Assembly (NCBI RefSeq): GCF_001314605.1 | Contig: NZ_LIHP01000001.1 | Location: 248,001-312,000 of the forward strand | DNA: 64,000 nucleotides | Reading direction: 5' to 3' | DNA from: Marinobacter sp. HL-58 | Lineage (GTDB): Bacteria; Pseudomonadota; Gammaproteobacteria; Pseudomonadales; Oleiphilaceae | Shown here: positions 12,579-57,542 of the stretch, in pieces | How positions within the stretch are numbered: position 1 is the stretch's first letter | How the letters are laid out: every line of letters starts with the position of its first letter | Notes under the pieces: generated by a model | The model's database searches: none | The model's input: only the letters and a program-made list of their open reading frames with translations | Told to the model about the DNA's origin: nothing | Program-made: the position numbers and the translations under genes

Positions 12579-12622
12579 GGATGGTGGCAGTCTGAGGGAA
12601 TCACCAGCCATGGGATCGGGAA

Positions 12623-15600
12623 ATGATTGATATTGCCGTTGTTGGCGATGCTGCCACCGGAAAGTGGGTAGAGCGCCAGGAACAGAAACTGGGTTCAGAA
12701 GGTTTGCGGTGCGGTTTTTTTGACTGGAAGTCCGGGCCGGGCAATGTTTCCGGGGTAGATCTCTGGTTGGTCGATATTGGCTGTTTAGCACCGCACGAGG
12801 CGAAATCCCTGGATACGATTGACGCGTTGAACGGAGAGTCTGCTTGCAGGCCGTGGGTGGCGATGGCAAACACGTTTTCTCTTGAGCTGACGCAGGTTGC
12901 TCTGTCGCTGGGTGCGGCACGGTGCCTGAGCAAGCCGGTGACACCCCGAGCTCTGTTGGAGTGCTGTCGGGACCTTGGCGTTGGAGAGCCACCCCGCAGC
13001 GGAATGCTGGCTGTGATCGAGGCCAGGGACACGGCTTATCAGGGGCTCGATAACGCATTGACGGGTGCGGGGTTGGCGGTCGAGAGGCTCGTTGACGTCG
13101 AGGCCGGTGTGCTTGCTTTGCAAAAAGATCCCCCTGACGGTCTTGTCATAAGCCACTATCCCGAATCCCTGTCGATCCGGGCCGTTATTGATCTGCTCCG
13201 GTCCTTTCCCCAACTCAATGCGGTTCCGGTATTTATAATTAAAGGTAAAACCAGGCAGGGTGAGGTCTTGCTGGCCCTGAACGCCCTTGTTGACGTTGTC
13301 TATGTTGCAGGCATTGACGAGTTGACTTCAGCGGTCACCGCCCGTTTGAACCGGAATCTGCCGGCAACAGGGGCCCGCCACCGGCTTTATGAAAAATTCC
13401 ATGACTATGAGCAGGAGCAGCGCGCCCTTCACCTGCATGCCATTGTCAGCAAGACGGATCGGGCTGGTCGGATTATTGAAGTGAATGATCGGTTTTGTGA
13501 AATCAGTGGCTATTCCTCAGAAGAATTGATCGGCCAGAACCACCGTATGCTCAAATCCGGACATCATTCAGTGGAATTTTACCATGAGCTCTGGTCCAGC
13601 ATCAGCCAGGGCGAAGTCTGGCGAGGTGAAATTTGCAACCGTGCCAGGGATGGATCCTATTACTGGGTGTCCTCGACTATTGTCCCCTGCCTGGACCAGT
13701 CAGGCCGCCCCTACCAGTACATTGCCATCCGCAAGGATATTACTCACGTCAAGGGTGCAGAGGCCCTTATCAGTCAGCAGGGAGTGCTGGCCAGTTGCCT
13801 GGGAGAGCTTGGCGCGCGGCTGCTTGATGTGGGTTGGCAGGAAGCTGTCCATGGACTCCGCGTCGCCTTTGCGCCTCTGTGTTATCTCTTACAGGCGGTT
13901 GGTGTAGCACTGGATCTGCAGAGACATTATCCGTTCCTGCATTATCTGCCAAAGGCATCGCCAGTCACGGAAGAACTGCCCGCACTGTGGATCCGGAACG
14001 CCGAAACCGAGCATGGTGGTCCCGGCTCTGGCGGGGCTCCGGCGTTTAGAGCTCCGTTAATGTTTAATGATGTTCAGCTGGGTACGGTAAGCATTGTCGG
14101 CCCATACAGCCCTACGGGCGAGACCTTCTCGCAGCAGGGTTTAATTGAGCTGTTTGCCAATATCCTGGCGGGAGCGCTGACTCGATGGCAACGGGAATTC
14201 GAGCATGAGCATAATCGTGAGCGCCTGCGGATTGCCCAGAAGTACTCGGGCATTGGCACCTGGGAATGGAACATCGCGACGGGTGAGCTCTACTGGACAG
14301 AACAGATTCCGGTCCTGTTCGGCTACCACGAAGGAGAGCTGGAGACCTCCTATGAAAACTTTATGAGTGCAGTGCACCCGGAGGACAGGGGAAAGGTCGA
14401 AACGGCCATAAAGGAGACGATTGAAGAGGATCATCCTTATCGTATCGAACATCGGGTGGTCTGGCCCGATGGCCAGATCCGGTGGCTACTGGAGACCGGA
14501 GACATTACCCGCGACGAATCCGGCAAGGCTGTCCGCATGCTGGGGGTGGTGCAGGACATTACCGGGATCCGGGAAGCCGATCTCAAGCTGGAGGCACAGG
14601 CCAGCCTGCTGAACATGCTCCACGATTCGCTTAACGCGTTTGTACTGGAGGGGAGGTTCAAGGCAACCCTGGATACCATGCTTGATAATCTGATCGGGCT
14701 TACTGGCAGCGAGTTTGGTTATCTGGCGGAGGTTCTGTATGACCATTCTGAAAAGCCCTACCTTCGCGTGCAGGCCATTACCGATATCAGCTGGGATGCG
14801 ATGTCCTCGGAGATGGTCAGTCGTGTAGGCACAGACCGTTTCGAATTCCGGGAACTGGACAACATGCTGGGCGCCTGTATCCGCGAGGGCGGGCCGGTCG
14901 TGGTTGATCAGGCATCGGCGGATGCCTCCCTCCGGTGCCTGCCTCCCGGGCATCCTGACATCCGCACCTTCCTGAGTGTTCCCATTTTTGTGGGAGCGGA
15001 GCTGGTGGGAACCTTTGCCCTGGCCAACCGGAAAGAGGGCTATGACGAGGAGCTCATCGAATTCCTGGGACCGTTTATGGCGACCTACGGGGTGATTATC
15101 AAATCCCAGCGCATGCTGGACATGGAGGCGATCAATCAAAAAAACCTGGTACGGGCCAAACAAAGGGCGGATCAGGCCAACCGGGCCAAGTCGGAGTTCC
15201 TGTCAAGCATGAGCCATGAATTGCGGACGCCTCTGAATGCGATCCTGGGTTTTGGTCAGTTGCTTGAGATCGATAATGACCTTGATGAAGAGCAACAGGA
15301 CAACGTCCGGGAAATCCTGAACGCCAGCAGGCATCTGCTTACACTGATCAACGAAGTCCTGGACCTGGCCAAAATCGAGTCAGGCAAACTCGACCTGTCG
15401 CTGGAAAGCATTCCCGTTTCTGAGCTAATGGAAGAAACCCTGACCCTGGTGCGGCACATGGCCCAGTCCCGGGGAATCAATATTCGCGTGGAAGACACTG
15501 ACGGCTTCCGGGTTACTGCAGACTGGACCCGCCTGAAGCAGGCCGTGACGAACCTTGTTTCCAATGCCATCAAGTACAACCGGCCACAGGGTGAGGTGTT

Positions 15601-43572: not shown

Positions 43573-44799
43573 TTAACTGACAGTGACCGTAACCCCGTGG
43601 TCCTTCCAGCCGTTGTGGCCGTAACCCCGTTCGTTTTCGGTCCGGCCCTCTGGCTGGGTGTTGCCCCTGGTATCGGTCGCCCTGCTGACGATACTGTATT
43701 CTCCTGCTGACAGATCCGCGGCCGCTACAAAGGGGCGCCAGGCGTAGGGGCCGAGATCCGGGCCCAGGAAACGGGCCTGTTTCCAGTTTTTGCCGCCATC
43801 TGTAGAAACCTCGACCTTGTCGAGGGCAACAGTGCCACCAAACGCCACACCGTAAATCATGTTCCGGCCATTCTGTCCGGTTTCAAGCGGGGAGGTTACC
43901 CAGGATTTGACGTTCATTTCCCACATGGAAGGCTGATCCGGGGAACCTTTCTTGCCCACATCACGGACCCGGTAGCCTGAGGCCTGGATTTTCGCGTCAG
44001 TCTGGCTTTCGGTAAAAGCAATGGCTTTGACATACTTGACATTGTTCACACCGTAGTAGCCGGGAATGACCATGCGCAGTGGGCCGCCATGGGTGTGTGT
44101 CAGGGGTTCATCGTTCATTTCCCACGCCAGAATCGCACTTTCCAGGGCATCGGTTGGCACGGAACGCTCAACGATAACGGTTTTGGGATCCAGTCCGTCC
44201 GGCAGCGATTCGCCACCTGTGCTGGTGATATAGCGGGCGCCTGAATCCGGGCCTCCAAGGGCATCCACTACATCTTTCAGCGGCACGCCTGTCCACATAA
44301 CACAGCCCGCTGCCCCGACTGTCCATTGGGTACCGCTTGCCCCGTGGGGAAAGAATGCCCGGCCGTTACCGGAACACTGAAGTACCGAAGCTACGGTGGT
44401 AACGCCCATTCCCTTGAGCTCGCCGACCGTGAGGGTGCGCGGGTTGCGGACGCCTTCAATCTTTACCTCCCAGGCATCGGGATTGTCGGCAATATTTTTC
44501 GGAGGCGCAGGCAGATTGTTACGAACGAACAGTCGGTCACTGGGTGTGATGACTCCATTGCCAATGGCATCGCGCCGGGTTTCCATGGTGTTCGCGCTGT
44601 GGACAATCAAGGCGTTGCGTTCTTTCCAGGCGGCGTAGTCCGGCAAGGACTTGGGCTCTTCGCCCCTGGCAACAGGGACGAAGCCAAGCAGGCTTACGGC
44701 AGCCATTGCACCTGCACTGCCTAACAGCAGTTTCCTGCGCGCCGGGTTATTGAGCCCCGGATCGTTCGCGCCCCGTTGCAGCATTGTTTCCTGTTTCAT
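43573..44799 (-). CDS. sorA: Molybdopterin sulfite oxidase, SorA-like, Tat-exported
   Basis: Periplasmic sulfite dehydrogenase, 408 aa. The twin-arginine signal has RR at 21-22 (NPARRKLLLG). The Moco domain has the Mo-ligand Cys142 in VLQCSGNGR and substrate-site regions RYITSTGGES and HTHGGPLRMVIPGYYG. A C-terminal Mo-co dimerisation domain follows (about 290-408). It oxidises sulfite to sulfate and passes electrons to the adjacent cytochrome c. The start at 44799 (MKQETMLQRG) has GGAG; the longer frame to 44841 is less likely. SoxC is the main alternative, but SoxD and other sox genes are absent. Confidence 0.88.
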   Translation of the reverse strand: MKQETMLQRGANDPGLNNPARRKLLLGSAGAMAAVSLLGFVPVARGEEPKSLPDYAAWKERNALIVHSANTMETRRDAIGNGVITPSDRLFVRNNLPAPPKNIADNPDAWEVKIEGVRNPRTLTVGELKGMGVTTVASVLQCSGNGRAFFPHGASGTQWTVGAAGCVMWTGVPLKDVVDALGGPDSGARYITSTGGESLPDGLDPKTVIVERSVPTDALESAILAWEMNDEPLTHTHGGPLRMVIPGYYGVNNVKYVKAIAFTESQTDAKIQASGYRVRDVGKKGSPDQPSMWEMNVKSWVTSPLETGQNGRNMIYGVAFGGTVALDKVEVSTDGGKNWKQARFLGPDLGPYAWRPFVAAADLSAGEYSIVSRATDTRGNTQPEGRTENERGYGHNGWKDHGVTVTVS

Positions 44800-44977
44800 G
44801 GTCCGTCTCCTTTTGAGGTTATTGTGGAACGGTGGAGCCATGGCCTGTCCTTCGGGGCAGGTTATATCCTTATTACTTATAGGGGATGGTCAAATTTTGT
44901 GCAACGCGTTTCTGCTATTATTTGATGGCACCCTGAACCGGCACATCAGACCGGGGATTTGCGCCATTGAACAGGTT

Positions 44978-45949
44978 TCAGCGAATGACAGTGGTTGCCA
45001 GATAGCCGGCGTAGCAGACGTATACAAGCAGCAATATGACGCCATCGGGCCGCCCGATGGTGCGGGATTTGCCGGTAAAGCCGAAGCTCATGACCAGAAG
45101 GCCGATGGTGAGGGCCGTCATCAGGGTCCAGTCGCGGTAGAGAACCTCCTTATCCACGGCCAGTGGCTCGATCGTTGCTGCCAGGCCAACAACCGCCAGG
45201 GTATTGAAAATACCGGACCCCAGGATGTTGCCCAGTATCAGGTCATGCTCTTTTTTCTTGACTGCTGCCAGCGCGGACGCCAGTTCCGGCAGGGAAGTGC
45301 CGATGGCAACGATGGTCAGGCCGATGATCAGGTCGCTGACGCCAAGGCTCTGGGCTATGAAAACCGCACCCCACACCAGCATGCGGGAACTGACCAGCAG
45401 CAGTACCAGGCCGATAACGAGCCAGATCACCGCACGATTCAATGGCATTGGATGGGCGGCCAGTTCGGCATCAGCACCGCTGATCAGGGCATCATCCTTG
45501 CCCTGTATGCCCTGGTAGATGGACCAGCCCATCACAGCGGCGAATACAGCCAGCAGCACCCAGCCGTCGAGCCGGGTCAGTACCCCGTCAATCAGCTGGT
45601 AGCCGGCGATCGCGGTCAGTACCAGCAGCAGCGGCAGTTCCTTGCGTATCACCTGTGAATGCACGGCAATCGGGGCGATCACCGCAGTAAGGCCCACAAT
45701 TACAGCAATATTGGTGATGTTCGAGCCGTAAGCGTTGCCCAGCGCAAGCCCCGGGTTGCCATCCAGTGCTGCCATGGCAGAAACCGCAAGCTCCGGTGCA
45801 GAGGTTCCGAACCCGATGATGACCATACCGATGAGTAATGAGGGCATGCCCAGGTGCTTGGCGGTTGCTGCGGCGCCTTCAATAAAGCGGTCGGCGCTCC
45901 AGACAAGAAGAACCAGCCCGGCGATGATTGCTGCAAATGCCAGTAACAT
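44978..45949 (-). CDS. Calcium/sodium antiporter of the CaCA family (YrbG-like)
   Basis: Inner-membrane antiporter, 323 aa, with about ten segments. The two alpha repeats are visible: GFGTSAPELAVSAMAALDGNPGLALGNAYGSNITNI and AIGTSLPELASALAAVKKKEHDLILGNILGSGIFN. They are the inverted cation-binding halves with the essential Glu and Asn/Asp. It is divergent from mqo across 235 bases. Confidence 0.93.
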   Translation of the reverse strand: MLLAFAAIIAGLVLLVWSADRFIEGAAATAKHLGMPSLLIGMVIIGFGTSAPELAVSAMAALDGNPGLALGNAYGSNITNIAVIVGLTAVIAPIAVHSQVIRKELPLLLVLTAIAGYQLIDGVLTRLDGWVLLAVFAAVMGWSIYQGIQGKDDALISGADAELAAHPMPLNRAVIWLVIGLVLLLVSSRMLVWGAVFIAQSLGVSDLIIGLTIVAIGTSLPELASALAAVKKKEHDLILGNILGSGIFNTLAVVGLAATIEPLAVDKEVLYRDWTLMTALTIGLLVMSFGFTGKSRTIGRPDGVILLLVYVCYAGYLATTVIR

Positions 45950-46067
45950 AAAGTAGCCCTGATAATGAAAGCCGCCCGGTATGAGACTAAAGTGGCGGTG
46001 ATATCGTCAACCTCAGGCGCAAGAATGGTCGCCGGGCGCGCGCATTTTATACGTTTGGCCCGCGATT

Positions 46068-46110
46068 GATAATCGCAATTTATTATCCGTTGAAAAAACG
46101 GGATAATCGC
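46068..46110. promoter_or_regulatory. Cluster of GATAAT inverted and direct repeats before mqo, possible operator
   Basis: GATAAT (46068-46073) and ATTATC (46082-46087) are inverted around eight bases, and GATAATCGC recurs directly at 46102-46110. The pattern recalls Fur-like sites but is not a clear match. It lies in the divergent region between the antiporter and mqo. Confidence 0.35.
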
Positions 46111-46184
46111 GCCACAACTTCAGAAGGCCCCTCTGCTGATCGTGGACGGGCTACAGGCTTTTAAACCAGCTAGGGTGAAAACCA

Positions 46185-47666
46185 ATGGCCGTTAGACAGG
46201 CAGATGTAGTGCTGGTCGGCGGTGGCGTCATGAGCGCTACCCTCGGCATGATGCTCAGGCAACTGGATCCTTCCCTGGGCATCGTCATGGTGGAGCGTCT
46301 TGATCACGTGGCCCATGAAAGCACCGATGGATGGAATAACGCGGGAACCGGCCATGCCGGTTACTGTGAACTCAACTACACCCCGGAAACCGGGGATGGT
46401 GATGTCAGCATCGAGCGGGCGCTGAAAATAAACGCCTCGTTCGAAGTTTCGTTGCAGTTCTGGTCGCACCTGGTGGAGCAGGGCATGCTGCCGGAGCCGA
46501 AGAGCTTCATAAACCGCACGCCGCACCAGAGTTTTGTCTGGGGAGAAGACGGCGTGAAGTTTCTCAAGCGCCGTTACGAAAAACTGAGCGCCCACCACCT
46601 GTTCCGCGAGATGGAGTACACCGAATCCCCGCGTGACCTGGAAGAATGGATGCCACTGGTAGTACGAAACCGGGACCCGATGCAGCGGGTCGCGGCCACC
46701 CGGGTCCGGCATGGTTCCGATGTGGACTTTGGCTCGCTTACCCGCAGCATGGTGAAATTCCTGGAAACCACGCCGAATTTCGAGCTCATGCTCAGCAGCC
46801 CGGTGCATTATCTGGCCAAGCGCGACAACGGGCGCTGGAAGGTGCGGGTCAAGAACCAGAAAACCGGTGAGCTTACCAAGCTCGAGGCGGGCTTTGTCTT
46901 CCTGGGAGCCGGCGGCGGTGCGCTGCCGATGCTGCAGAAGTCCAACATCGACGAATCGAAAGGTTACGGTGGTTTCCCTGTCAGTGGTCAATGGCTGGTA
47001 TGCCAGAAGCCGGAAATCGTCGAACAACACCATTCCAAGGTGTACGGGAAGGCCCCGATCGGCGCCCCGCCCATGTCCGTGCCTCACCTGGATACGCGCA
47101 TCATCAACGGCGAGCCGGCGCTGCTGTTTGGTCCCTTCGCAGGCTTTACCACGCGTTTTCTGAAGCAGGGCTCCGTGTTCGACCTGATCGGTTCGGTCAG
47201 TCCCACCAACCTGCGGCCCATGCTGTCTGTGAGCCGGACCAATATGGACCTCACCCGCTACCTGATCGGTGAGGTATTCCAGTCCCACAGCGACCGGGTA
47301 GCGTCTCTGCGCAATTACTTCCCTGATGCCCGTGAGGAAGACTGGCGCCTGCAGGAGGCCGGTCAGCGGGTACAGATAATCAAGAAATCCAAAGACGGCG
47401 GCGGCAAGCTGGAATTCGGCACCGAAATTGTGGCGGCCAAGGATGGCAGCCTTGCTGCGCTTCTTGGTGCATCGCCAGGTGCATCCACGGCCGCCCATGC
47501 CATGATCGATGTGATCGAGCGCTGCTTCCCGGAGCGCATCAGGTCACCCGAATGGCAGGAGCGCATGAAAGTAATGGTGCCCTCCTACGGTCAGTCACTG
47601 GTGGATGATGAGCAACTGCTCAACAGTGTGCGTGAACGGACCCTCTCGACCCTGAAACTGGCGTGA
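46185..47666 (+). CDS. mqo: Malate:quinone oxidoreductase
   Basis: Membrane-associated FAD enzyme, 493 aa, oxidising malate to oxaloacetate and reducing quinone. The N-terminal FAD fold is VVLVGGGVMSATLG, and Mqo-typical GWNNAGTGHAGYCELNYTP is present. The length matches the family. The ATG at 46185 follows AGGGTGAAA. It works with fumC in the TCA cycle. Confidence 0.96.
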   Translation: MAVRQADVVLVGGGVMSATLGMMLRQLDPSLGIVMVERLDHVAHESTDGWNNAGTGHAGYCELNYTPETGDGDVSIERALKINASFEVSLQFWSHLVEQGMLPEPKSFINRTPHQSFVWGEDGVKFLKRRYEKLSAHHLFREMEYTESPRDLEEWMPLVVRNRDPMQRVAATRVRHGSDVDFGSLTRSMVKFLETTPNFELMLSSPVHYLAKRDNGRWKVRVKNQKTGELTKLEAGFVFLGAGGGALPMLQKSNIDESKGYGGFPVSGQWLVCQKPEIVEQHHSKVYGKAPIGAPPMSVPHLDTRIINGEPALLFGPFAGFTTRFLKQGSVFDLIGSVSPTNLRPMLSVSRTNMDLTRYLIGEVFQSHSDRVASLRNYFPDAREEDWRLQEAGQRVQIIKKSKDGGGKLEFGTEIVAAKDGSLAALLGASPGASTAAHAMIDVIERCFPERIRSPEWQERMKVMVPSYGQSLVDDEQLLNSVRERTLSTLKLA

Positions 47667-47698
47667 TATTCCCAATCGATATAAGACCGGCAAAAGTG

Positions 47699-47732
47699 CC
47701 GGCAATACTGGCTTGATAGCCCGTATTGCCGG
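47699..47732 (+). terminator. Hairpin after mqo
   Basis: CCGGCAATAC and GTATTGCCGG form a perfect ten-base stem 33 bases after the mqo stop. There is no T run, so it may be an mRNA-stabilising hairpin or a factor-dependent terminator. Confidence 0.5.
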
Positions 47733-47818
47733 CGCTCGTTGCGTTTCAGGGCCTTGGTTTGGTTGCGATTTGTAACCAGGGCGTTAGGTTATAAGTACAC
47801 CCCCGAAGGAGAACGCTT

Positions 47819-49051
47819 ATGAGCGAGCACAAGTTCGATCCGAATAAAGGCTATGTTGCACTCCTGGGCTGGAGTCTGAATGCGGTGGAAGCCGCCGACA
47901 AGTTTGACCGCCGATACGTGGTGGTGGCCCCTGACTGGGCCGAGGCCTACTGCAAGGAACACGATATTCCCTATGTTCCCTGGAACTTTGAGCGGCTGAA
48001 TGACCGCTCTGTAGAGATTGCCCAGACGCTCAAGGATATGGGTGTTGATGTGGCAATTCCGTTATTCGAGGAAACCGTGGAGTGGGCCGGTGCCATCAAC
48101 TCGGTGTTGATGGATCAGCCGAAACTGTTTGGCCAGTCCATGTTGTTGCGGGACAAGGCCCTGATGAAGCGTCGCGCCCAGCTCGGCGGTATCCGCGTGG
48201 GCATCTTCGAGGAAGCCCATGATCGGGAAGACGTTATCCGTTTCCTGAAACGCGTTAACCAGACACTGCTCAAGCTGGATGGTGACCCTAACGACCCCAT
48301 CCACCTGAAAGCCTTTGATAAGGCCGGTTGCCTCGGGCACCGTGTTATCCGCACGCCGGACGAAGTGGATACCATTCCCGAGGAAGAGTTTCCGGTATTG
48401 ATGGAATCCCACCTGGACGGTTGGGAATTCGCGGTTGAGGCCTGGATTCACAATGGCAAGATCGCCTTTCTGAACATCTCCGAATACGTCACCCTGGGTT
48501 ATTCCGTGTTCGTGCCGGCAACCCCGGACCTGGAGAAATACCGGGAACAGATTACCCGCGAGATCGAGAAGCTGATCAAGACCTTCGATATCGAATTCGG
48601 GTTTATTCACCCGGAATACTTCGTGACCAGCGACAGCACCATGTACTTTGGCGAGGTGGCGTATCGGCCGCCGGGCTTCAAGGTCTTCGAGCTCCTCGAG
48701 CGCGCCTATGGATTCAACGCCTATCAGGCATTGATCATGACGTTCGACCCGAAAACCACCGACGAGGAGGTCAAGGCGTTCTTCCCGAAAGAGGTGGTGG
48801 ACGCCAAGGGTTATGCCGGTTGTTTCGGTGTTTACCCGCGCCGCCGGGTGGTCAGCAAGCTGGAAATGCCGGAGGAGACCGAGAACCACGAGTATTTCGA
48901 GTCTCACGAGCTGACGCCGCCGCTGGAAGAAACGGTTACCAAGCGCACCGCCTTTGGCACGCACTGGGGCCTGATCTACTTCTTCGGTGAAGACCCTTAT
49001 GTGATGAGAGATTTGCTGAAACATCAGGAAGAACTGGATTTCTATGTATAA
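47819..49051 (+). CDS. ATP-grasp ligase of unknown substrate
   Basis: Cytoplasmic protein, 410 aa. The N-terminal pre-ATP-grasp fold (about 1-95; YVALLGWSLNAVEAA, VAIPLFEETVEW) resembles carbamoyl-phosphate synthase/carboxylase relatives. The ATP-grasp core (about 110-310) has a lysine-rich entry (LLRDKALMKR) and the metal/phosphate motif GEVAYRPPGFKVFELL. It should activate a carboxylate with ATP and join it to an amine or thiol. The C-terminal 90 residues are unassigned. The ATG has CGAAGGAG. The next gene, 53 bases on, encodes a large protein with a possible cysteine-hydrolase core, which suggests a peptide or amide pathway; that is inference. Confidence 0.82.
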   Translation: MSEHKFDPNKGYVALLGWSLNAVEAADKFDRRYVVVAPDWAEAYCKEHDIPYVPWNFERLNDRSVEIAQTLKDMGVDVAIPLFEETVEWAGAINSVLMDQPKLFGQSMLLRDKALMKRRAQLGGIRVGIFEEAHDREDVIRFLKRVNQTLLKLDGDPNDPIHLKAFDKAGCLGHRVIRTPDEVDTIPEEEFPVLMESHLDGWEFAVEAWIHNGKIAFLNISEYVTLGYSVFVPATPDLEKYREQITREIEKLIKTFDIEFGFIHPEYFVTSDSTMYFGEVAYRPPGFKVFELLERAYGFNAYQALIMTFDPKTTDEEVKAFFPKEVVDAKGYAGCFGVYPRRRVVSKLEMPEETENHEYFESHELTPPLEETVTKRTAFGTHWGLIYFFGEDPYVMRDLLKHQEELDFYV

Positions 49052-49104
49052 TTCCGCAAGGAATTAACAATAACGGGTCTGGCACAGATCCTGAGGAAGA
49101 CAGT

Positions 49105-51129
49105 TTGAGCAATTCCGACGCTGGAAACCCGGCACCTGTCGTTAACTTCGATAAGCTGGTGCAGCGACTGGATGATGCCATAGCGGCTCTCGACGAGAGC
49201 CGCGCTTTTGCAAAACCCGGCAAGCTGCCCCGGCTGTTCGATACAGTCCGCCGGGTATTGCTTCAGCCGGGTGGGTGTCTTGCGGTCCAGGAGCGGGCCG
49301 AATGGCTTGAGAAAGCCGGCGTGTTCCTGGGCACCGACTGGGCAGAGCCCTCCATCCTTTTACCGTCGCTGACAACTTTCTCCCTGCAAAGCCCCAATGC
49401 CGACACGGTCATTATCGAGGCGCTCAGTGAACTGAGGTTGCTGGCGGTTGCCCGTGGCGAATACCTGCACGAGACCGTTTCTGCGGAACAGGCGCACCAT
49501 TACCTGACTCAGGTACTGGCGATCAATCTCAACATGTTGTTCGGTGAAACCGGTGAAGCCGAGCGGGAACAGGGTAAGCTGGCCCTGGTCAGCCGTGCGG
49601 TGGTGCAGCACATTGCTGCCAAAATCGGCTATGAGCATGTCATCGACAAGCTCATCGAAGAAATCTGGCGGATATTGCAGCAGCGGCCAATCCAGGTTAC
49701 CAGTGTGCGGCAGATGATTACCCAGATCGCTTTGTGCAGGGTGGACCCCAATGTCGATCTTGGTGGCGCCGGCCAGGGCGCCGAGCGCCTGATTTCAAGT
49801 CTTTACGGGCCCACCCAGGCCTGCCGTGAAGACCCGGGCATTCCGGTTTACGAGGAGCGCCTGCAGTCCATGGATTCGGGGGCGTTACAGAGTGAGGCCA
49901 CCGGATTTGCCCGCTCCATGCATGATACCGGGCTGGTGTCACCTTACCATGCCGCGTTTGTGCGCTTTATCCTGGAAAAGCAGGATTCCATGCTGACCGA
50001 GGCGCTGGGGCTTTCCAGCACCGGTCGTGACTGCCTGCTGTGCTACAAGGACCTGGTTCACGAGCTGGTTGCCGAAGGTGTTTTTCCGGAAACGGCCCAG
50101 GGCCTCTACGGGCTGGCACTGATGCTGGAGAGGGGGATTCTCTACCAGCCGCCGGTGGCGCCCGCTCTCTGGCGTCAGGCGCGCCTGTCCATCTGTCCCG
50201 AGGCACGTGAGCGCATCCAGCTGGCTTACGGTTACCAGCCCCAGCCCAAGGCCTGGCTGATCCAGGGTGTGCTGAACATGCTGGGCCAGCCGCTTGGTGT
50301 AGGGCAGGGCAATAATCCCACCTGCCAGTCGGCGCGCGCGCTTTCCATGTGGGCCTATAACGACCCGGACTATCTGTTGCAGATGGTGGCCTGGGCCGCC
50401 CGTGACAACGAGATCATCATGCATTTCGAAGGCCAGCCGGTGTCGTCGGTGACGAGCCAGGGTGGTGTGGCCTCCGAAGTAACGCTGGACCTGGATCCGG
50501 TTTCGCTGGTGGTGGTGCCGCATCTGGACAGGATCTACGCTGAGATGGGCCGTTTGTGCGTGGGCCGTCAGGGCGACCCCCATCAATGGGTGAACCCGGA
50601 ATTTCACGGCTGGTCAGCCGGACGGGGTTTCCGGATCAACGTTGATGTGGCAACGGGACAGCTGGATGATCTGGAAACCTTCCTGCGGCATTTCTATGCC
50701 AGTTATCACCCCTACTACAACGGCAATCAGCCGTTGATCCACCCGCAGCCCGCAGGCGTGGCGGTTACCGACAGCGCCGCGCGATTCATCGGCTGGCACG
50801 CGATCACCATACTTCGGGTGACACTGGACCCGGATGACGTAATGCGGGTGTATTTTTTCAATCCCAATAACGATAGCGGCCAGAACTGGGGTGACGAGGT
50901 GGTGGTCAGTACCGCCGGGAAAGGCGAGCGTTTCGGTGAAGCGTCTCTGCCCTTTGAACAGTTTGCTTCCCGGCTGTACATTTTCCATTTTGATCCCCTC
51001 GAACGGGGTGAGCCTGCAGAAGTCGGCGAGGAAGAACTGGAACGGGTGATCGGCCGTGTTCACCGCAGCTGGGGCCGGGACCGGCTTCCCGCGGAAGCGC
51101 TTCAGGCAGAACCACCACTGGAAGGATAG
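49105..51129 (+). CDS. Large unrecognised protein with possible Cys-His-Asn hydrolase/transglutaminase-like core
   Basis: Protein of 674 aa, no signal peptide or membrane segment; family not recognised. Residues 1-380 look all-helical. The C-terminal half contains GQGNNPTCQSARALSMW with Cys407 at the start of a helix, AARFIGWHAITILRV with His565 and VYFFNPNNDSGQNWG with Asn586. The order and spacing are those of papain-like or transglutaminase-like folds, where a helix-capping Cys precedes a strand His and an Asn or Asp. The start is TTG at 49105 with GAGGA eight bases upstream. It is flanked by ATP-grasp and ThDP-enzyme genes on the same strand. The catalytic reading is inference from motif layout only. 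Confidence 0.7.
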   Translation: MSNSDAGNPAPVVNFDKLVQRLDDAIAALDESRAFAKPGKLPRLFDTVRRVLLQPGGCLAVQERAEWLEKAGVFLGTDWAEPSILLPSLTTFSLQSPNADTVIIEALSELRLLAVARGEYLHETVSAEQAHHYLTQVLAINLNMLFGETGEAEREQGKLALVSRAVVQHIAAKIGYEHVIDKLIEEIWRILQQRPIQVTSVRQMITQIALCRVDPNVDLGGAGQGAERLISSLYGPTQACREDPGIPVYEERLQSMDSGALQSEATGFARSMHDTGLVSPYHAAFVRFILEKQDSMLTEALGLSSTGRDCLLCYKDLVHELVAEGVFPETAQGLYGLALMLERGILYQPPVAPALWRQARLSICPEARERIQLAYGYQPQPKAWLIQGVLNMLGQPLGVGQGNNPTCQSARALSMWAYNDPDYLLQMVAWAARDNEIIMHFEGQPVSSVTSQGGVASEVTLDLDPVSLVVVPHLDRIYAEMGRLCVGRQGDPHQWVNPEFHGWSAGRGFRINVDVATGQLDDLETFLRHFYASYHPYYNGNQPLIHPQPAGVAVTDSAARFIGWHAITILRVTLDPDDVMRVYFFNPNNDSGQNWGDEVVVSTAGKGERFGEASLPFEQFASRLYIFHFDPLERGEPAEVGEEELERVIGRVHRSWGRDRLPAEALQAEPPLEG

Positions 51130-51158
51130 ATTCAGCCGGGAAATCCGGTACAGGAGAC

Positions 51159-52832
51159 ATGATGACCGCAGAGGCCAATGACCGCCGCAATGGCGCCGAG
51201 CTGTTTGTTCGCGCCCTGGAAAATGAAGGGGTCCGTTATATTTTCGCGGTTCCGGGTGAGGAAAATCTGGATCTTCTGGAAGCTTTGAGAGAGTCCGGCA
51301 TCGAGCTGATTCTCAACCGCCATGAACAGGCGGCCGGCTTCATGGCGGCCACCTACGGACGGCTGACCGGGCGGGTTGGCGTTTGCCTGTCGACCCTGGG
51401 CCCTGGTGCCACCAACCTGGTAACAGCGGCCGCCTACGCGCAGCTGGGTGGCATGCCCATGATGATGATTTCCGGCCAGAAGCCCATCAAGTCCTCCAAG
51501 CAGGGGCTTTTCCAGATACTGGATGTGGTGGACCTGATGCGTCCGCTGACCAAATACACCCGCCAGATCAGCAACGCCAATACCATTCCGGCCAAGGTGC
51601 GGGAAGCTTTCAGGCTGGCATCGGAAGAGCGCCCCGGCGCCGTGCACCTGGAACTGCCGGAGGACATCGCCTCGGAACTGGCAGACTCCGACACCCATAT
51701 TTTCCAGCCCAGTGATGCCCGCCGGCCCACGGCCAGTGCCAAAAGCCTGGATATCGCCTGCGACATGATCCGCCAGGCAAGGCACCCGCTGATCATGATC
51801 GGCGCCGGCGCCAATCGCAAACGGGTGTCCCAGGCGCTGATTCACCTGGTGAATGTGACCGGTATCCCCTTTTTCACCACCCAGATGGGCAAGGGCGTGG
51901 TGGACGAGCGTCATCCCGGGTACCTGGGCAACGCCGCCCTGTCGTCAGGCGACTTCGTTCATTGTGCCATTGATCACGCCGACCTGGTCATCAATGTGGG
52001 GCATGACGTGGTCGAGAAGCCTCCGTTCTTCATGAAACCTGGCGGCAAGCAGGTCATTCATGTGAACTTCAGCGCCGCTGACGTGGACCCGGTCTACTTC
52101 CCCCAGCACGAAGTGGTGGGAGACATCGCCAACAGCGTGGAATACCTGGCGGAGCAATGCGGTCAGTGCTCATCCCATGACTTCAGCCGGTTTATGGAAG
52201 TGAAAGCCGCGGTTGACCATCATCTGGCTGAAAAAGTCGATGATAACCGTTTCCCGGTGATCCCCCAGCGTATCGTCCACGATGTGCGCCAGGTCATGCC
52301 GGAGGACGGTATCATCGCGCTCGATAACGGCATGTATAAACTCTGGTTCGCCCGTAATTACCCCGCCTACGACAACAATACCGTGCTGCTGGACAACGCG
52401 CTGGCGTCCATGGGTGCCGGCCTGCCCAGCGCCATGATGGCGGCGATGCTGTATCCACACCTCAAGGTGATGGCGGTGTGCGGTGACGGTGGTTTCATGA
52501 TGAACAGCCAGGAGCTGGAAACCGCGGTACGCCTCAAGCTCAATCTGGTCATACTGATCATTAACGATAATGCCTATGGCATGATCAAGTGGAAGCAGTC
52601 CCAGGAGGGCTTCCAGAATTTCGGGCTGGATTACAACAACCCGGATTTCGTGAAATACGCCGAGTCCTATGGCGCCACCGGCCACCACATCAGTCGCACT
52701 GAGGATCTGCAGCCAACCCTGAAAAGCGCGCTGACGGCCGGGGGCGTGCACCTGATTGACGTGCCCGTGGACTACAGTGAAAACCGCCGCGTGTTTGATG
52801 AAGAATTGGTAAAACTGACCTGTAATCTCTAG
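51159..52832 (+). CDS. Acetolactate synthase-like ThDP-dependent enzyme
   Basis: Cytoplasmic ThDP enzyme, 557 aa. The cofactor-activating Glu is in LNRHEQAAGFMAATYGR. The central domain follows (about 195-335), then the PP domain with GDGGFMMNSQELETAVRLK...NDNAYGMIKWKQ, the ThDP/Mg motif. It is nearest to catabolic acetolactate synthases or related decarboxylases; no regulatory small subunit or other ilv gene is present, so branched-chain synthesis is not implied. ATG 51159 or 51162 (adjacent) after GGAGA. It lies 29 bases after the 674-aa gene and is probably cotranscribed with it and the ATP-grasp gene. Confidence 0.85.
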   Translation: MMTAEANDRRNGAELFVRALENEGVRYIFAVPGEENLDLLEALRESGIELILNRHEQAAGFMAATYGRLTGRVGVCLSTLGPGATNLVTAAAYAQLGGMPMMMISGQKPIKSSKQGLFQILDVVDLMRPLTKYTRQISNANTIPAKVREAFRLASEERPGAVHLELPEDIASELADSDTHIFQPSDARRPTASAKSLDIACDMIRQARHPLIMIGAGANRKRVSQALIHLVNVTGIPFFTTQMGKGVVDERHPGYLGNAALSSGDFVHCAIDHADLVINVGHDVVEKPPFFMKPGGKQVIHVNFSAADVDPVYFPQHEVVGDIANSVEYLAEQCGQCSSHDFSRFMEVKAAVDHHLAEKVDDNRFPVIPQRIVHDVRQVMPEDGIIALDNGMYKLWFARNYPAYDNNTVLLDNALASMGAGLPSAMMAAMLYPHLKVMAVCGDGGFMMNSQELETAVRLKLNLVILIINDNAYGMIKWKQSQEGFQNFGLDYNNPDFVKYAESYGATGHHISRTEDLQPTLKSALTAGGVHLIDVPVDYSENRRVFDEELVKLTCNL

Positions 52833-52883
52833 CCCGTGTAGTATCATTCACCCGGTTCCGGACAGCGGTTTGAGGGTGGCGGT

Positions 52884-53756
52884 ATGATGTATGCGTGGTT
52901 GAAGGTGGCAGTATTGACGCTGGTGGTGTCTTTTGCTGCGGGTTGCAGCAAGCCGGAGACTCCCCAGGAAGTGGCCGCCGAGTTCTGGCAGGCCCTGGCG
53001 GAAAACGATGCGGATGCAGTCGCTGACCTGTCGACGCTTGCCAACCCCTCCGACTTCGACGGCTATGACCAGGACTGGTTTGAAACCGTACCCGACTTCG
53101 GCCGGGTGATTATTGAAGACCGCGAAGCCTCGATTGTCACCCGCCTGCCATCCGAAAGCGGGACTTCCGGCGAGCGCCGGGAAGTGATTACCTGGCTGGT
53201 GGAACTCAATGGTGACTGGCTGGTGGACTATGATCGCACCGGAAAGTCCGTCATCAATCGCTCCCCCCTCGACAGCCTGATGGGCGAGATCAACAAGCTG
53301 GGCGAGCGTTTGTCGGCGACGTTCAGTCAATCCTCTGACGATATCGCCATCCAGATGGATGAAATGGCCCGGGAGTTTGAAGCATTCTCCGACGAAGCCA
53401 ACCGCAGGGCCAGGCAAGCCATGGACGATTATGGCCGTGCACTGCAGGGGTTGATGGAAGAGCTCAGGGAATCTGTTGAAGAGGCCCTGGAAGAAAACCG
53501 GCAGGCCCCGGCTGGCGATAGAAGTGCCTTGCAGCAAACCGCTGCCGAACTGGGCAAAAGCAGCGACAAGCTGGATGAACCGGACTTTGAGGCCTTTGCT
53601 GACAGCTCCCGCACGCTGGCTGAGGCAGGCGAGCGGTTTTCACAATTGAGCGACGAGTCCTTCAGGAAGTACCAGCAGGAATGGGATGCCAGGCTGGAAA
53701 AAGTCAGTGAGCGCACAATCGCCTTTTTTGAAGAACTTCAGGGCGAGGCCCGGTAA
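52884..53756 (+). CDS. Putative lipoprotein with coiled-coil C-terminus
   Basis: Secreted protein of about 290 aa. A lipobox is present (VSFAAGC, Cys21 from the first ATG), so outer- or inner-membrane anchoring is expected. Residues 25-120 resemble the small DUF4878/NTF2-like lipoprotein fold (ETPQEVAAEFWQALAENDADAVADL); from 125 onward the sequence is charged and helical, likely coiled coil. Function unknown. ATG 52884 or 52887. It follows the ThDP gene by 51 bases and converges on the exoD gene. Confidence 0.78.
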   Translation: MMYAWLKVAVLTLVVSFAAGCSKPETPQEVAAEFWQALAENDADAVADLSTLANPSDFDGYDQDWFETVPDFGRVIIEDREASIVTRLPSESGTSGERREVITWLVELNGDWLVDYDRTGKSVINRSPLDSLMGEINKLGERLSATFSQSSDDIAIQMDEMAREFEAFSDEANRRARQAMDDYGRALQGLMEELRESVEEALEENRQAPAGDRSALQQTAAELGKSSDKLDEPDFEAFADSSRTLAEAGERFSQLSDESFRKYQQEWDARLEKVSERTIAFFEELQGEAR

Positions 53757-53765
53757 CAAGACGGG

Positions 53766-54365
53766 TCAACCCACAAGGCTGGTGAGCACAAACCAGCCTG
53801 TCACCAGCGTGAACGATGTTGCCAGTACGGCCAATAGCCCGTCCCGAGCCACTATGGCCAGCCCGAAAGCCATCAGTGCGGCACCGCCGCCATTGGCGCT
53901 GAAAGGCACCAGTTCCATCAGTGGCATCGCCATGGCAACCGCCATGCAGATAATCGCCATCACATAAAGCCCCGGGCCGTCCACCAGGAATACCAGCCGT
54001 GGGCCTGTCCAGCGGTCGAGAAACCGGGCCGGCTTCTGCAGCCAGTCCAGTCCCCTGAGCAGCTTGTCCCGCGGAACCGAACGCGCGGAAATCCACGCCG
54101 GCAGCCAGATGGAATGTCTGCGGCATAACAACTGCCCGAGCGTGAGCAGCACTATCAGCCCAAGAACCGTTGGAACCCCCGGAATATCGCCAATCAAAGG
54201 CGCGATAATTATCAGCCCCGCCAGCAAAACCAGCGGCCCGAAAGACCGCTCGCCCACGCCATTGAGAATGTGGTTCACCGACACAACCCCAGGCCCTGCC
54301 GCGGACTCGCGGATCTGGTCCAGAAGCTGTTGCATGCTGGTTGCGTCGTTATGGTTTCTTTCCAT
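53766..54365 (-). CDS. ExoD-family membrane protein
   Basis: Inner-membrane protein, 199 aa, with four or five hydrophobic segments (for example LVLLAGLIIIAPLIGDIPGVP and VMAIICMAVAMAMPL). The N-terminal GPGVVSVNHILNGVGERSFGPL is the ExoD signature. ExoD affects exopolysaccharide production and alkali tolerance in rhizobia; the biochemical role is unknown. It is divergent from the peroxiredoxin. Confidence 0.88.
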   Translation of the reverse strand: MERNHNDATSMQQLLDQIRESAAGPGVVSVNHILNGVGERSFGPLVLLAGLIIIAPLIGDIPGVPTVLGLIVLLTLGQLLCRRHSIWLPAWISARSVPRDKLLRGLDWLQKPARFLDRWTGPRLVFLVDGPGLYVMAIICMAVAMAMPLMELVPFSANGGGAALMAFGLAIVARDGLLAVLATSFTLVTGWFVLTSLVG

Positions 54366-54387
54366 GCTTTAAATCTATTTGATCTAT

Positions 54388-54410
54388 AGATATAACTTTA
54401 TTGTATATCT
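54388..54410. promoter_or_regulatory. Inverted repeat in the exoD/peroxiredoxin divergent region
   Basis: AGATATA and TATATCT are perfect seven-base arms with a nine-base spacer, in an AT-rich stretch 78 bases upstream of the peroxiredoxin gene. Candidate operator; it does not match a consensus I can name. Confidence 0.35.
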
Positions 54411-54487
54411 GTGGGTGAACGGGTTATTGTGGTCGGGACATAACGAGGCATACAGCCTCCCATGCAAAACCCGACAGGAGATTCACC

Positions 54488-55114
54488 ATGACTTTAAGAC
54501 TTGGCGATACCGCACCGAACTTTACCATTGACAGCACCGCTGGCCAGATCAATTTCCACGACTGGGCAGGGGATTCCTGGGTATTCTTCTTCAGCCACCC
54601 TGCCGATTTTACCCCGGTGTGCACCACCGAAATGGGCCGCACCGCCCAACTGGCGAAGGAATTTGAGGCCCGCAACGTGAAGCCGCTGGGCTTGTCCACC
54701 GACACCGTTGAAGAGCACGTCAAGTGGATTGAAGACGTCAATGATACCCAAAACACTGACCTGCAGTTCCCGATCGTCGCTGATGCCGACCATAAAGTGG
54801 CCGAGCTGTACGAGATGATTCATGCCGGTGAGAGCGAAACGGCAGCCGTGCGCAGCGTGTTTATCATCGACCCGAACAAGAAGATCCGCCTGACCATGAC
54901 CTATCCGATGGCTGTGGGCCGGAACTTCGACGAAATCCTCCGGGTGATCGATGCGCTTCAAACCAGCGACGAGCACAGTTGTGCCCTGCCGGCTGACTGG
55001 CAAAAAGGTGATGATGTCATCATTCCGCCCTCTATCTCCAATGAGGAAGCCAAGGGAATGTTCCCGAACGGCTGGAATGAGATCCGTCCCTACCTGCGCA
55101 CAACCAAACTCTGA
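54488..55114 (+). CDS. 1-Cys peroxiredoxin (Prx6-like)
   Basis: Peroxide-reducing enzyme, 208 aa. The peroxidatic Cys45 is in DFTPVCTTEMG, and the Prx6-type long C-terminal domain has SCALPADWQKGDDVIIPPS. No resolving Cys is seen at the typical 2-Cys position, so an external reductant is needed. The ATG at 54488 follows ACAGGAG. A strong terminator follows. Confidence 0.93.
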   Translation: MTLRLGDTAPNFTIDSTAGQINFHDWAGDSWVFFFSHPADFTPVCTTEMGRTAQLAKEFEARNVKPLGLSTDTVEEHVKWIEDVNDTQNTDLQFPIVADADHKVAELYEMIHAGESETAAVRSVFIIDPNKKIRLTMTYPMAVGRNFDEILRVIDALQTSDEHSCALPADWQKGDDVIIPPSISNEEAKGMFPNGWNEIRPYLRTTKL

Positions 55115-55130
55115 TCGGTTTGGCGGATAA

Positions 55131-55165
55131 AAAGGGTGCCTGCCGGTTGGCAGGCACCCTTTGTT
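55131..55165. terminator. Strong rho-independent terminator after the peroxiredoxin
   Basis: AAAGGGTGCCTGCC and GGCAGGCACCCTTT form a 14-base perfect stem with a GGTT loop, A run on the left and TTTGTTCGTTT on the right. Confidence 0.88.
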
Positions 55166-55189
55166 CGTTTGATCAGGGTCAAGCCGGTA

Positions 55190-55205
55190 GTTATAAGCTT
55201 ATGAC
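55190..55205. promoter_or_regulatory. Near-perfect palindrome upstream of the sulfur cluster
   Basis: GTTATAAGCTTATGAC is symmetrical except for one base pair. It lies 78 bases upstream of the rhodanese-gene ribosome site and is a candidate regulator site. No copy was found in the divergent region before the sulfide:quinone oxidoreductase gene. Confidence 0.35.
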
Positions 55206-55282
55206 AATGCTTGAGCGGCCCGGCACTACAGGAGTATGTTGAATAAACCGTCGGGGAATTCCGATTCCAGGAGAAAATGATC

Positions 55283-55828
55283 ATGACACGTTTAATGTTC
55301 GGCTTTTTATTAGCCCTTGCCCTCAGTTTCAATGCCCACGCCGAGGATGCCCTTTCTCTCACACCCCAGCAGACCTATGACATGGTTCAGGAAAAGGGTG
55401 ACGAGATTCTGTTTGTGGATGTCCGGGACCCGGTGGAGATCATGTTTATCGGCTATACGGATGTGATCGACAAGAACATTCCCTTCAAGCTGGTGGACCG
55501 CTCTGAGTTTCTTGCCGACAAGGGCCGCTTTGCCATGAACACCAACCCGGATTTCGTGGCCGATGTGGAAAAGGCCCTGGAGGAAAAGGGCCTGGACAAG
55601 GATGCTCTGATCATCACCATGTGCCGTTCCGGGGCAACCCGCGGCAAGCCAAGTGCTGACTATCTGCTGGAGCGCGGCTTCACCAACGTGAAGTACATTG
55701 ATAATGGTTTTCAGGGTGGTGGTGCCAAAGAAGGCAAGAAAAAAGGTATGAGGATCGTCAACGGCTGGCAGAACGATGGCCTGCCGTGGTCCATGACACT
55801 CAATCCGGAGAAAATCTATCGCCCGTAA
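55283..55828 (+). CDS. Periplasmic rhodanese-domain protein
   Basis: Sulfurtransferase, 181 aa, with a Sec signal (ending NAHA, about residue 20). The single rhodanese domain has the active loop MCRSGATRGKPSA, where Cys would carry the persulfide; DVRDPVEI is the domain start. The ATG at 55283 has AGGAG nine bases away, whereas the ATG six bases earlier would leave only three. It heads a run of inorganic-sulfur genes and may move sulfane sulfur from thiosulfate or persulfides. Confidence 0.88.
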   Translation: MTRLMFGFLLALALSFNAHAEDALSLTPQQTYDMVQEKGDEILFVDVRDPVEIMFIGYTDVIDKNIPFKLVDRSEFLADKGRFAMNTNPDFVADVEKALEEKGLDKDALIITMCRSGATRGKPSADYLLERGFTNVKYIDNGFQGGGAKEGKKKGMRIVNGWQNDGLPWSMTLNPEKIYRP

Positions 55829-55925
55829 TGGCGGTCTTTTCGGGTTAATGACTCTGAAGTCGCAGTAGCAGGGAGTTTGTCGATACTTCTGGTGATCCCG
55901 GGGTCGGGATCATGGAGGAGAAAAC

Positions 55926-57542
55926 GTGAAAAAAACGGGGTGGAAATATCTGGTTCGTTTTGGCAGGCCTGCTGCCCGTATAGTTCTGGCCGGAGCATTG
56001 ATTTGCTCCGGCTTTGCTGTTTCTGGGGCCGAGCGCCCGCCCGCCACTGCTGATCACAGTAAATTCGAGGCACTTGAGGGCCCGTTCGAGAACGCCCGGG
56101 ACGTCACGGAAGCCTGCCTTGGTTGTCATACCGAAGCCGGTAAACAGATCCGGGAGACCACGCACTGGACCTGGACCTACGAGCACCCTGAAACCGGGCA
56201 GACGCTTGGCAAAAGCGAGGTCATTAACAGCTTTTGCGGTATGGCAATCACTAACGAGCCACGTTGCACCTCGTGCCATGTAGGCTACGGGTGGGAAGAC
56301 ATGAGGCAGCCTCCACCTGCTGCAGACAACGCCGTTGATTGTCTCGTGTGCCATGACACCACCGGTGATTACTGGAAGTTTCCCACCCTGGCCGGTTATC
56401 CCACTGACAAGCCCCGGGAATGGCCCAAGGGCAGTGGGGACATGGTTCAACCGCCAGACCTGGAAAACATAGCGCAACATGTCGGGGCCAGTGGCCGCGC
56501 CAACTGCGGAAGCTGTCACTTCTATGGCGGCGGTGACGATGGCGTCAAACACGGAGACCTGGACTCTTCCCTGGTGGACCCACCGCGGACGCTGGATGTT
56601 CACATGTCACCGGACGGCCTCGACTTCGCTTGCGCTGACTGCCACACCAGTTGGGGGCACCAGGTGGCTGGCAGCCGTTACCAGGCCAATGCCGCCGACA
56701 CCCTGGGCATTGATGTGCCCGGGCACACGGATTTCAGCCGTGCCAGTTGCCAGTCTTGCCACGGCGATTCGCCGCATCCGCAACAGAAACTCAACGACCA
56801 TGTCGATACCCTGGCCTGCCAGACCTGCCATGTGCCGGAATTCGCCCGTGGCGGTGTTGCCACAAAGATGTGGTGGGACTGGTCCACCGCCGGCAGGCTG
56901 GATGAAAACGGGGAACCGATTACCGAGTACGATGAGCACGGTCATCCCAGTTACCTGAGTGAAAAAGGGGACTTCCGCCACGGGGAAAATGTGGTACCCA
57001 CCTACGCCTGGTTCGACGGCACGGTGAAATATACCCTGGTGGACGAGCGGCTGGATGTGGATCACCCGCCTGTCGCCATCAACCGGGTAGAGGGCAGCCC
57101 GGACGATCCCGGATCGCGCATCTGGCCGTTCAAGGTGATGGAGGGCAAGCAGCCCTATGACACCGAGCGGGAAACCCTGCTGGCTACCCATGTGTTTGGC
57201 GCCGATGACACGTCACTGTGGAGCAACTTCAGCTGGCCAAAGGCCCTGAAGGCGGGAAGCGAGCTGTCCGGTATGCCGTTCAGCGGCAATTACGACTTCA
57301 TCGAAACCACCATGCACTGGCCCATTACCCATATGGTGCCACCGGCTGAACAGGCACTGGATTGCGCCTCTTGCCATGCCAGTAACAGCCGCCTGGCGGG
57401 TCTTCCCGGAATCTATATGCCGGGGCATAACGGTAACCTCTGGCTGGATCGCATTGGCTGGTTACTGGTGGCCCTGACTCTTGCGGGCGTGGTGCTTCAT
57501 GGTCTGGCAAGGATTGTGCTCAAGGGGAGGAAGTCGTCATGA
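55926..57542 (+). CDS. Octahaem c-type cytochrome, tetrathionate reductase (Otr)-like
   Basis: Multihaem periplasmic protein, 538 aa, anchored by a C-terminal membrane helix (about 510-530). There are exactly eight CxxCH motifs: CLGCH, CTSCH, CLVCH, CGSCH, CADCH, CQSCH, CQTCH, CASCH. Family members reduce tetrathionate, and also nitrite or hydroxylamine in vitro; direction in the cell is unclear. A Sec signal with basic start and hydrophobic core precedes residue 36. The GTG start is at 55926 after GGAGGAG. Its stop overlaps the cytochrome b start (ATGA), so they are coupled and probably form a quinone-linked complex. Confidence 0.9.
   Translation: MKKTGWKYLVRFGRPAARIVLAGALICSGFAVSGAERPPATADHSKFEALEGPFENARDVTEACLGCHTEAGKQIRETTHWTWTYEHPETGQTLGKSEVINSFCGMAITNEPRCTSCHVGYGWEDMRQPPPAADNAVDCLVCHDTTGDYWKFPTLAGYPTDKPREWPKGSGDMVQPPDLENIAQHVGASGRANCGSCHFYGGGDDGVKHGDLDSSLVDPPRTLDVHMSPDGLDFACADCHTSWGHQVAGSRYQANAADTLGIDVPGHTDFSRASCQSCHGDSPHPQQKLNDHVDTLACQTCHVPEFARGGVATKMWWDWSTAGRLDENGEPITEYDEHGHPSYLSEKGDFRHGENVVPTYAWFDGTVKYTLVDERLDVDHPPVAINRVEGSPDDPGSRIWPFKVMEGKQPYDTERETLLATHVFGADDTSLWSNFSWPKALKAGSELSGMPFSGNYDFIETTMHWPITHMVPPAEQALDCASCHASNSRLAGLPGIYMPGHNGNLWLDRIGWLLVALTLAGVVLHGLARIVLKGRKSS

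Follow-up and report, generated by a model that had tools for sequence, protein, structure and literature searches.

What do an ATP-grasp ligase, a protein of a new family and a thiamine diphosphate (ThDP) enzyme do side by side in the genome of Marinobacter sp. HL-58, and do all three belong together? The genes lie on the forward strand of a 64,000-nucleotide (nt) stretch, hereafter the window (contig C8, 248001-312000, of an assembly totalling 4.24 Mb), in which AG (47819-49051, 410 amino acids (aa), ATG start) encodes the ATP-grasp ligase, P2 (49105-51129, 674 aa, TTG start) the protein of the new family and TH (51159-52832, 557 aa, ATG start) an acetolactate-synthase-like ThDP enzyme. Each start codon is preceded on the same strand by a sequence resembling a ribosome-binding site (AAGGAG at 47806-47811, GAGGAAG at 49093-49099 and AGGAG at 51152-51156, respectively), and gaps of 53 nt and 29 nt separate AG from P2 and P2 from TH, so that the three closely spaced, same-strand open reading frames (ORFs) described in a sequence-only reading of this DNA are indeed present at their coordinates. 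That reading had proposed an undescribed ligase/hydrolase system of three genes, with Cys407, His565 and Asn586 of P2, which are found at these positions, as a papain- or transglutaminase-like active site. As detailed below, AG and P2 form a conserved, co-inherited two-gene unit, an HDAC-like deacetylase is likely to be its usual partner, and TH is judged to stand outside it.

The occurrence of AG and P2 was compared in three genome samples, which have the window's own genome in common. AG is present in 11 of 398 Pseudomonadota genomes, with strong P2 matches in the same 11; strong AG matches occur in 10 of 321 gammaproteobacterial genomes, again with P2 in the same 10; and in the window's family AG is carried by 118 of the 163 genomes sampled and P2 by the same 118. 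Three genomes with a partial best P2 match (G470, G485 and G496) were scored as present in these counts, from which four cases were left out: a twelfth P2 match among the 398 Pseudomonadota (G226, E 4e-4), treated as spurious, a genome with a distant AG and no P2 (G663), a 39-residue P2 match that is perhaps due to chance (G441, E 5e-5), and G555, in which AG is absent and P2 lies in two fragments. Among the sampled genomes, none keeps an intact-looking P2 without AG. The pairing extends to gene order. AG lies directly upstream of P2 in 73 of the 80 named loci examined (the best 80 of 574 confirmed relatives), namely, with the loci sorted by their record titles, in 45 of 52 Marinobacter loci, among which a locus labelled Halomonas but with Marinobacter gene order (L055) is counted, and in all 28 others; one of the seven Marinobacter loci without an adjacent AG, L042, has no upstream sequence. 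In genome G468, AG is missing beside P2 (L184) and is found elsewhere with an E value of 9.7e-222, scoring like the paralogues at 76-78% identity. Over 53 loci, the distances of AG and P2 are correlated (r = 0.75, a value reached by 0 of 2000 permutations), with AG evolving about half as fast as P2. The co-occurrence expected by the sequence-only reading therefore holds for these two genes, and AG and P2 are a conserved, co-inherited unit. Among the best 80 named loci, it is carried by Marinobacter, Halomonas and their relatives, Marinimicrobium and a single metagenome-assembled genome of Ectothiorhodospiraceae, all of them marine or halophilic groups.

P2 has no counterpart in the family collections that were searched. 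The window protein matched no Pfam family at E values up to 10, and among 19 relatives four Pfam families appeared, each matched by a single relative; no match was obtained in NCBIfam, PDB sequences, PHROGs or PADLOC, and a P2 profile run against PDB sequences recovered only designed helical bundles (E 0.17 and 1.5). P2 is nevertheless a real coding sequence, since relatives at 39-95% identity are present in many genomes, reaching 95% in named Marinobacter species. The three proposed catalytic residues, Cys407, His565 and Asn586, are invariant in 70 of 70 close sequences. Among 18 divergent sequences, of which the other 17 share 39-75% identity with the window protein, 91 columns are invariant, including Q401, C407, Q408, H565, N586, P587, N588, Q593 and G596 in 18 of 18, and many positions of the helical N-terminal part are invariant as well. 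The order Gln, Cys, His, Asn of papain-like clan CA peptidases is thus present and invariant in P2: Gln401 (codon 50305-50307, forward strand, as are those that follow) stands six residues ahead of the putative nucleophile Cys407 (50323-50325), the spacing seen in papain (Q19/C25), followed by His565 (50797-50799) as the candidate general base and Asn586 (50860-50862) as the candidate third residue.

Structural modelling points weakly in the same direction. An AlphaFold2 model of the whole protein, with a predicted local distance difference test score (pLDDT) of 72.7, divides P2 into a helical N-terminal part (about residues 1-395) and a predicted papain-like C-terminal domain (about 396-635), in which DSSP places Cys407 just ahead of helix 408-419, in a segment of low local confidence, His565 on strand 561-574 and Asn586 after strand 580-585. 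Modelling the C-terminal part by itself did less well (pLDDT 56.2). With VIA-align, residues 397-638 of the whole-protein model aligned with papain-like peptidases (Z up to 5.6; calpain, Z 4.9 over 197 residues) and the helical part with unrelated helical proteins (Z up to 6.6), while the separate C-terminal model reached a best Z of 6.0 (root-mean-square deviation 4.0, 110 residues aligned). In the latter search, 49 of the best 50 of 285 chains with Z >=2 are papain-type cysteine peptidases or toxins, as judged from their titles, and the remaining one is 9jdd, a type VI effector. A fold search in BFVD returned nothing below E 0.001, with papain-family proteases at E 0.08-0.3. Absence of a protein family from these fold lists does not exclude it. 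Z values below 8 may mean little alone, and the assignment leans on residues and fold together; on this combined footing P2 is probably papain-like. It differs from known papain-like clan CA peptidases in lacking any Pfam or PDB sequence match and in its low fold scores.

The Pfam family ATP-grasp_4 matches all 53 AG sequences of our alignment (best E 1e-6), and the window protein by itself scores 23.1 bits, under the curated cut-off of 27; AG is therefore placed in the ATP-grasp superfamily, as had been read from its sequence, and outside the Pfam family ATP-grasp_4 proper. LAL_C2 is weakly matched in 6 of the 53 sequences (best E 0.0055), and the nearest PDB sequence to the AG profile is the L-amino acid ligase BL00235 (E 0.0078). 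These ligase matches are weak, and on them AG leans towards being a distant relative of the L-amino acid ligases, which make dipeptides. AG shares the ATP-grasp signature with ligases of the BL00235/BacD type and differs from them in the faintness of the match, in its slow evolution (the columns of the 53-sequence alignment average 91% identity) and in that no dipeptide or antibiotic cluster was noticed around it. Its conservation is at least that of malate:quinone oxidoreductase, its neighbour in most Marinobacter loci. A distant AG relative (E 8e-24) was observed in a gammaproteobacterial genome without P2 (G663; locus L229, 4768-5904), indicating that the family of AG extends beyond AG-P2.

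Besides the AG1-P2-TH set in the window, the same genome holds a second AG (AG2) on contig C21, oriented divergently to a P2 copy whose frame is broken, and a lone P2 on contig C16. Next to AG2 lies a gene for a class-II histone deacetylase (HDAC)-like protein. HDAC adjoins AG or P2 at this site and in G434, G446 and G426 (L212-L214, adjacency taken from match coordinates), G193, G803, G726 and locus L060; the order on one strand is P2-HDAC-AG in G803 and AG-P2-HDAC in G726 and L060, the latter with HDAC truncated at the contig end, and in G138 HDAC lies 3 kb from the pair. All four members scanned match PF00850 (2e-90 to 9e-96), the best PDB matches being HDAH (208 bits) and single-domain HDAC6 (184), ahead of HDAC10 (157) and acetylpolyamine aminohydrolase (123). 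Residues H151, H152, D187, D189, H191, D277 and Y319 are invariant in 25 of 25 members and comprise the catalytic residues of an HDAC, namely the H151/H152 pair, the Asp/His/Asp zinc ligands and the Tyr. By its sequence the C21 partner is class-II HDAC-like. It resembles class-II HDAC/HDAH enzymes in these features and differs in forming a full-length subfamily with an N-terminal stretch of its own that tracks AG and P2.

With the C21 protein as query, members of this subfamily were called at E <=1e-80, a threshold set after the gap between members (<=2e-85) and non-members (>=9e-68) had been seen. In Fisher tests, which ignore shared ancestry, the subfamily follows AG throughout: it occurs in 96 of 118 genomes with AG vs 1 of 45 without in the window's family (p 5e-22), in 83 of 105 vs 1 of 19 within the genus (p 8e-10), and in 13 of 16 vs 0 of 28 outside the family (p 1e-8), the 28 having been hand-picked from the negatives of the Pseudomonadota and gammaproteobacterial samples. 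Overall this amounts to 109 of 134 genomes with AG vs 1 of 73 without, the single exception being G441, which has a fragment only. Because the subfamily is absent from 22 of the 118 AG-carrying genomes of the family and from 3 of the 16 outside it (G395, G707 and G016), the deacetylase is not obligate, and it is likely to be the usual, non-obligate third partner of AG and P2. A gene for a GNAT acetyltransferase adjoins HDAC in four Marinobacter loci (C21, G434, G446 and G436). In two loci of the Halomonas group (L195 and L197), HDAC was seen by eye beside fadBA-like genes of fatty-acid oxidation.

The joint inheritance of AG, P2 and usually HDAC suggests an undescribed, reversible pathway that forms amides. 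At about even odds (roughly 0.5), we read AG and P2 as both obligate in an enzyme module not described before, with HDAC as its usual third part, that would run a reversible amide cycle. By analogy with L-amino acid ligases, AG would activate a carboxylate as an acyl-phosphate and couple it to an amine; P2, judging from its papain-like family, would hydrolyse or transfer the same amide, and its helical N-terminal part may bind the substrate. The deacetylase, with GNAT in the four Marinobacter loci, would control whether the acceptor amine is free, and the module would run a reversible ligation whose target is an amine of the amino-acid or lysine type, carried by a metabolite or by a peptide. 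No signal peptide was seen by eye in AG, P2 or HDAC, for which no dedicated prediction was made, and all three are accordingly taken as cytoplasmic. Such a make-and-break cycle fits because an intact-looking P2 never occurs without AG in the sampled genomes. The ligase/hydrolase system put forward in the sequence-only reading thus stands as regards the conserved AG-P2 pair and the papain-like residues, and fails as regards the ThDP gene, which lies outside the unit; HDAC as a third partner was not part of that reading.

Several points weigh against this reading. A Foldseek search of the P2 model against PDB gave nothing significant (all E >0.4). The fold scores are low throughout (Z <=6, from models at the pLDDT values given above), the loop with Gln401 and Cys407 is modelled at pLDDT <50 (396-408), and most of the best 50 fold matches align only the strand-rich half that carries His and Asn, without Cys. 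The window AG falls short of the ATP-grasp_4 cut-off, and P2 also stands alone at the second site on C16. As to the deacetylase, it lies apart from AG-P2 in most genomes examined and is missing from some AG-carrying genomes altogether, its threshold was chosen after the fact, and the tests of its association with AG ignore shared ancestry.

It is possible, and we hold this tentatively, that the module instead makes a small amide-linked metabolite, such as an acetyl-protected dipeptide or an amide osmolyte of halophiles; AG would join the parts, the deacetylase would strip a protecting acetyl group and P2 would trim or recycle the product. The marine or halophilic nature of the named carriers and the leaning of AG to dipeptide-making ligases would both suit such a role. 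For N-carbamoyl-glutamine amide, we know of no assignment of the genes for synthesis. PMC7824335 lists amide osmolytes of purple sulfur bacteria, which likewise favours a metabolite. We looked for recurring neighbours in 90 loci, in 30 loci and in a set of 38 non-Marinobacter loci, the last over a distance of up to five genes from P2. A gene for an MscS/MscK-type mechanosensitive channel is found close to AG-P2 in 13 of the 38, all of the Halomonas group, and in L157 a BCCT gene and another mechanosensitive-channel gene flank AG-P2, which also speaks for this reading; matches of 30-43% to this BCCT protein occur further out in 10 Marinobacter loci and in L165 and L184. Other neighbours of P2 that recur within the Halomonas group are an S4/FtsJ-type methyltransferase (19 of 38, and also Marinimicrobium L062), an AbrB-like protein (12 of 38) and a DUF883 protein (12 of 38). 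However, the methyltransferase, channel and AbrB-like genes are nearly all found in the Halomonas group, where a block of AG-P2, channel, S4/FtsJ methyltransferase and phospholipase A1 is shared (L058, L061, L063, L068-L077 and L082), so that they look like synteny of related genomes, and in none of the three sets of loci do distant lineages share a recurring gene for transport or biosynthesis.

It is unlikely that the module serves to form and cleave a conjugate of a polyamine or amine, as a non-homologous counterpart of glutathionylspermidine synthetase/amidase. In that system, labour is split in the same way, between an ATP-grasp synthetase and a papain-like amidase that form a make-and-break pair. 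However, AG and P2 are two separate proteins, and Pfam gives neither GSP_synth nor CHAP for them at E values up to 1. The partner is of the class to which HDAC10 belongs, an enzyme reported to deacetylate polyamines (PMC5454378), but by the bit scores above it is closer to HDAH and HDAC6 than to HDAC10 and acetylpolyamine aminohydrolase. The P2 copy on C16 (L116, 2026-8512) has as its neighbour an ABC transporter, of polyamine type as judged by eye, for which Pfam reports only a solute-binding protein; this transporter neighbour was met in one genome only. An FAD oxidoreductase and a methyltransferase are also near the C16 copy, and PotF-like and aldehyde dehydrogenase neighbours (L116 and L233) were sighted once each; like the BCCT matches, they serve as weak hints at most.

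A non-enzymatic P2, with its papain-like domain acting as a scaffold that serves AG in binding or regulation, appears improbable. The weak fold matches, a catalytic activity that is only predicted and the many invariant residues of the large helical part would be compatible with it, but the papain-site Gln, Cys, His and Asn are all invariant down to 39% identity, and a scaffold would need none of them. We regard as just as doubtful a bacterial form of reversible protein- or peptide-tail modification, in which AG would attach either an amino acid or a peptide to an amine, P2 would take it off again, and GNAT and HDAC would block and free lysine-type amines. In eukaryotes, three enzymes modify tubulin, namely tubulin tyrosine ligase, vasohibin and HDAC6; the enzyme types here, an ATP-grasp ligase, a papain-like protease and an HDAC6-like deacetylase, would mirror that trio, with no homology of the ligases implied. 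Least credible of all, and largely refuted, is a single three-gene operon for a pathway that needs a ThDP enzyme, which the tight same-strand spacing and the adjacency of TH and P2 in 34 of the 52 Marinobacter loci would favour, but against which stand the 18 other Marinobacter loci and all 28 loci outside that genus, 25 of these with sufficient downstream sequence, in which TH is not directly downstream of P2, counts that refer to adjacency only and not to presence elsewhere in those genomes.

TH itself scores 886.8 bits against NCBIfam NF006187 (cut-off 509) and is, by this match, an ordinary acetolactate synthase of the PRK08322 type, as its sequence had led one to expect. No gene for a small subunit was seen by eye among the translations of window positions 44000-57000, the part of the genome covered. 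With its adjacency limited to part of Marinobacter, TH was rejected as a member of the module and is judged an unrelated neighbour, a passenger in some Marinobacter genomes. In many Marinobacter loci, the next gene after TH encodes a coiled-coil putative lipoprotein (window 52884-53756), which diverges rapidly (44-78% identity).

At the second site, the P2 copy beside AG2 (L117, spanning C21:290000-309000; copy at 11463-13413) is broken near the residue matching 566 and continues in a second frame, and at the matching locus of G446 (L214) only a 191-aa P2 ORF was called. A RES-domain gene (L117, 6905-8004), with an Xre-like gene before it, appears toxin-antitoxin-like by eye and stands just ahead of GNAT-HDAC-AG2, an arrangement repeated in G434 (L213). 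A phage, plasmid or defence origin of AG-P2 was also considered and rejected: P2 was absent from the phages searched, none of 71 pattern matches in viral contigs was confirmed, PADLOC and PHROGs were negative, and the only plasmid hit was a 1.8-Mb Halomonas replicon, on which the stretch is unannotated in the collection.

Neighbourhoods that combine an ATP-grasp amidoligase with a papain-like or NlpC-type hydrolase were reportedly surveyed by Iyer et al. in 2009, a work that may mention AG or P2 genes. AG-P2 shares with them the pairing of a ligase with a cysteine hydrolase and differs in a P2 without Pfam entry, with a helical part of about 395 residues, and in its usual HDAC partner. That survey is cited in PMC10318531 and PMC4431377. 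Within the portions available of the literature on ATP-grasp/cysteine-hydrolase pairs, amidoligase neighbourhoods, HDACs and Marinobacter/Halomonas, no account of the module was found, and the term ATP-grasp does not appear in PMC11532494. The combination of ATP-grasp ligase and cysteine hydrolase is thus of a known kind, and the novelty lies in P2 as a family, in how strictly it is tied to AG, and in the deacetylase.

The module is probably important in Marinobacter, Halomonas and their relatives, because the P2 family has no Pfam entry and AG is conserved at least as well as malate:quinone oxidoreductase. Bacterial HDACs are described as largely uncharacterised (PMC11532494), and a role may now be suggested for one of their subfamilies. 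A deacetylase as partner would imply three enzymes acting in sequence on one amine substrate.

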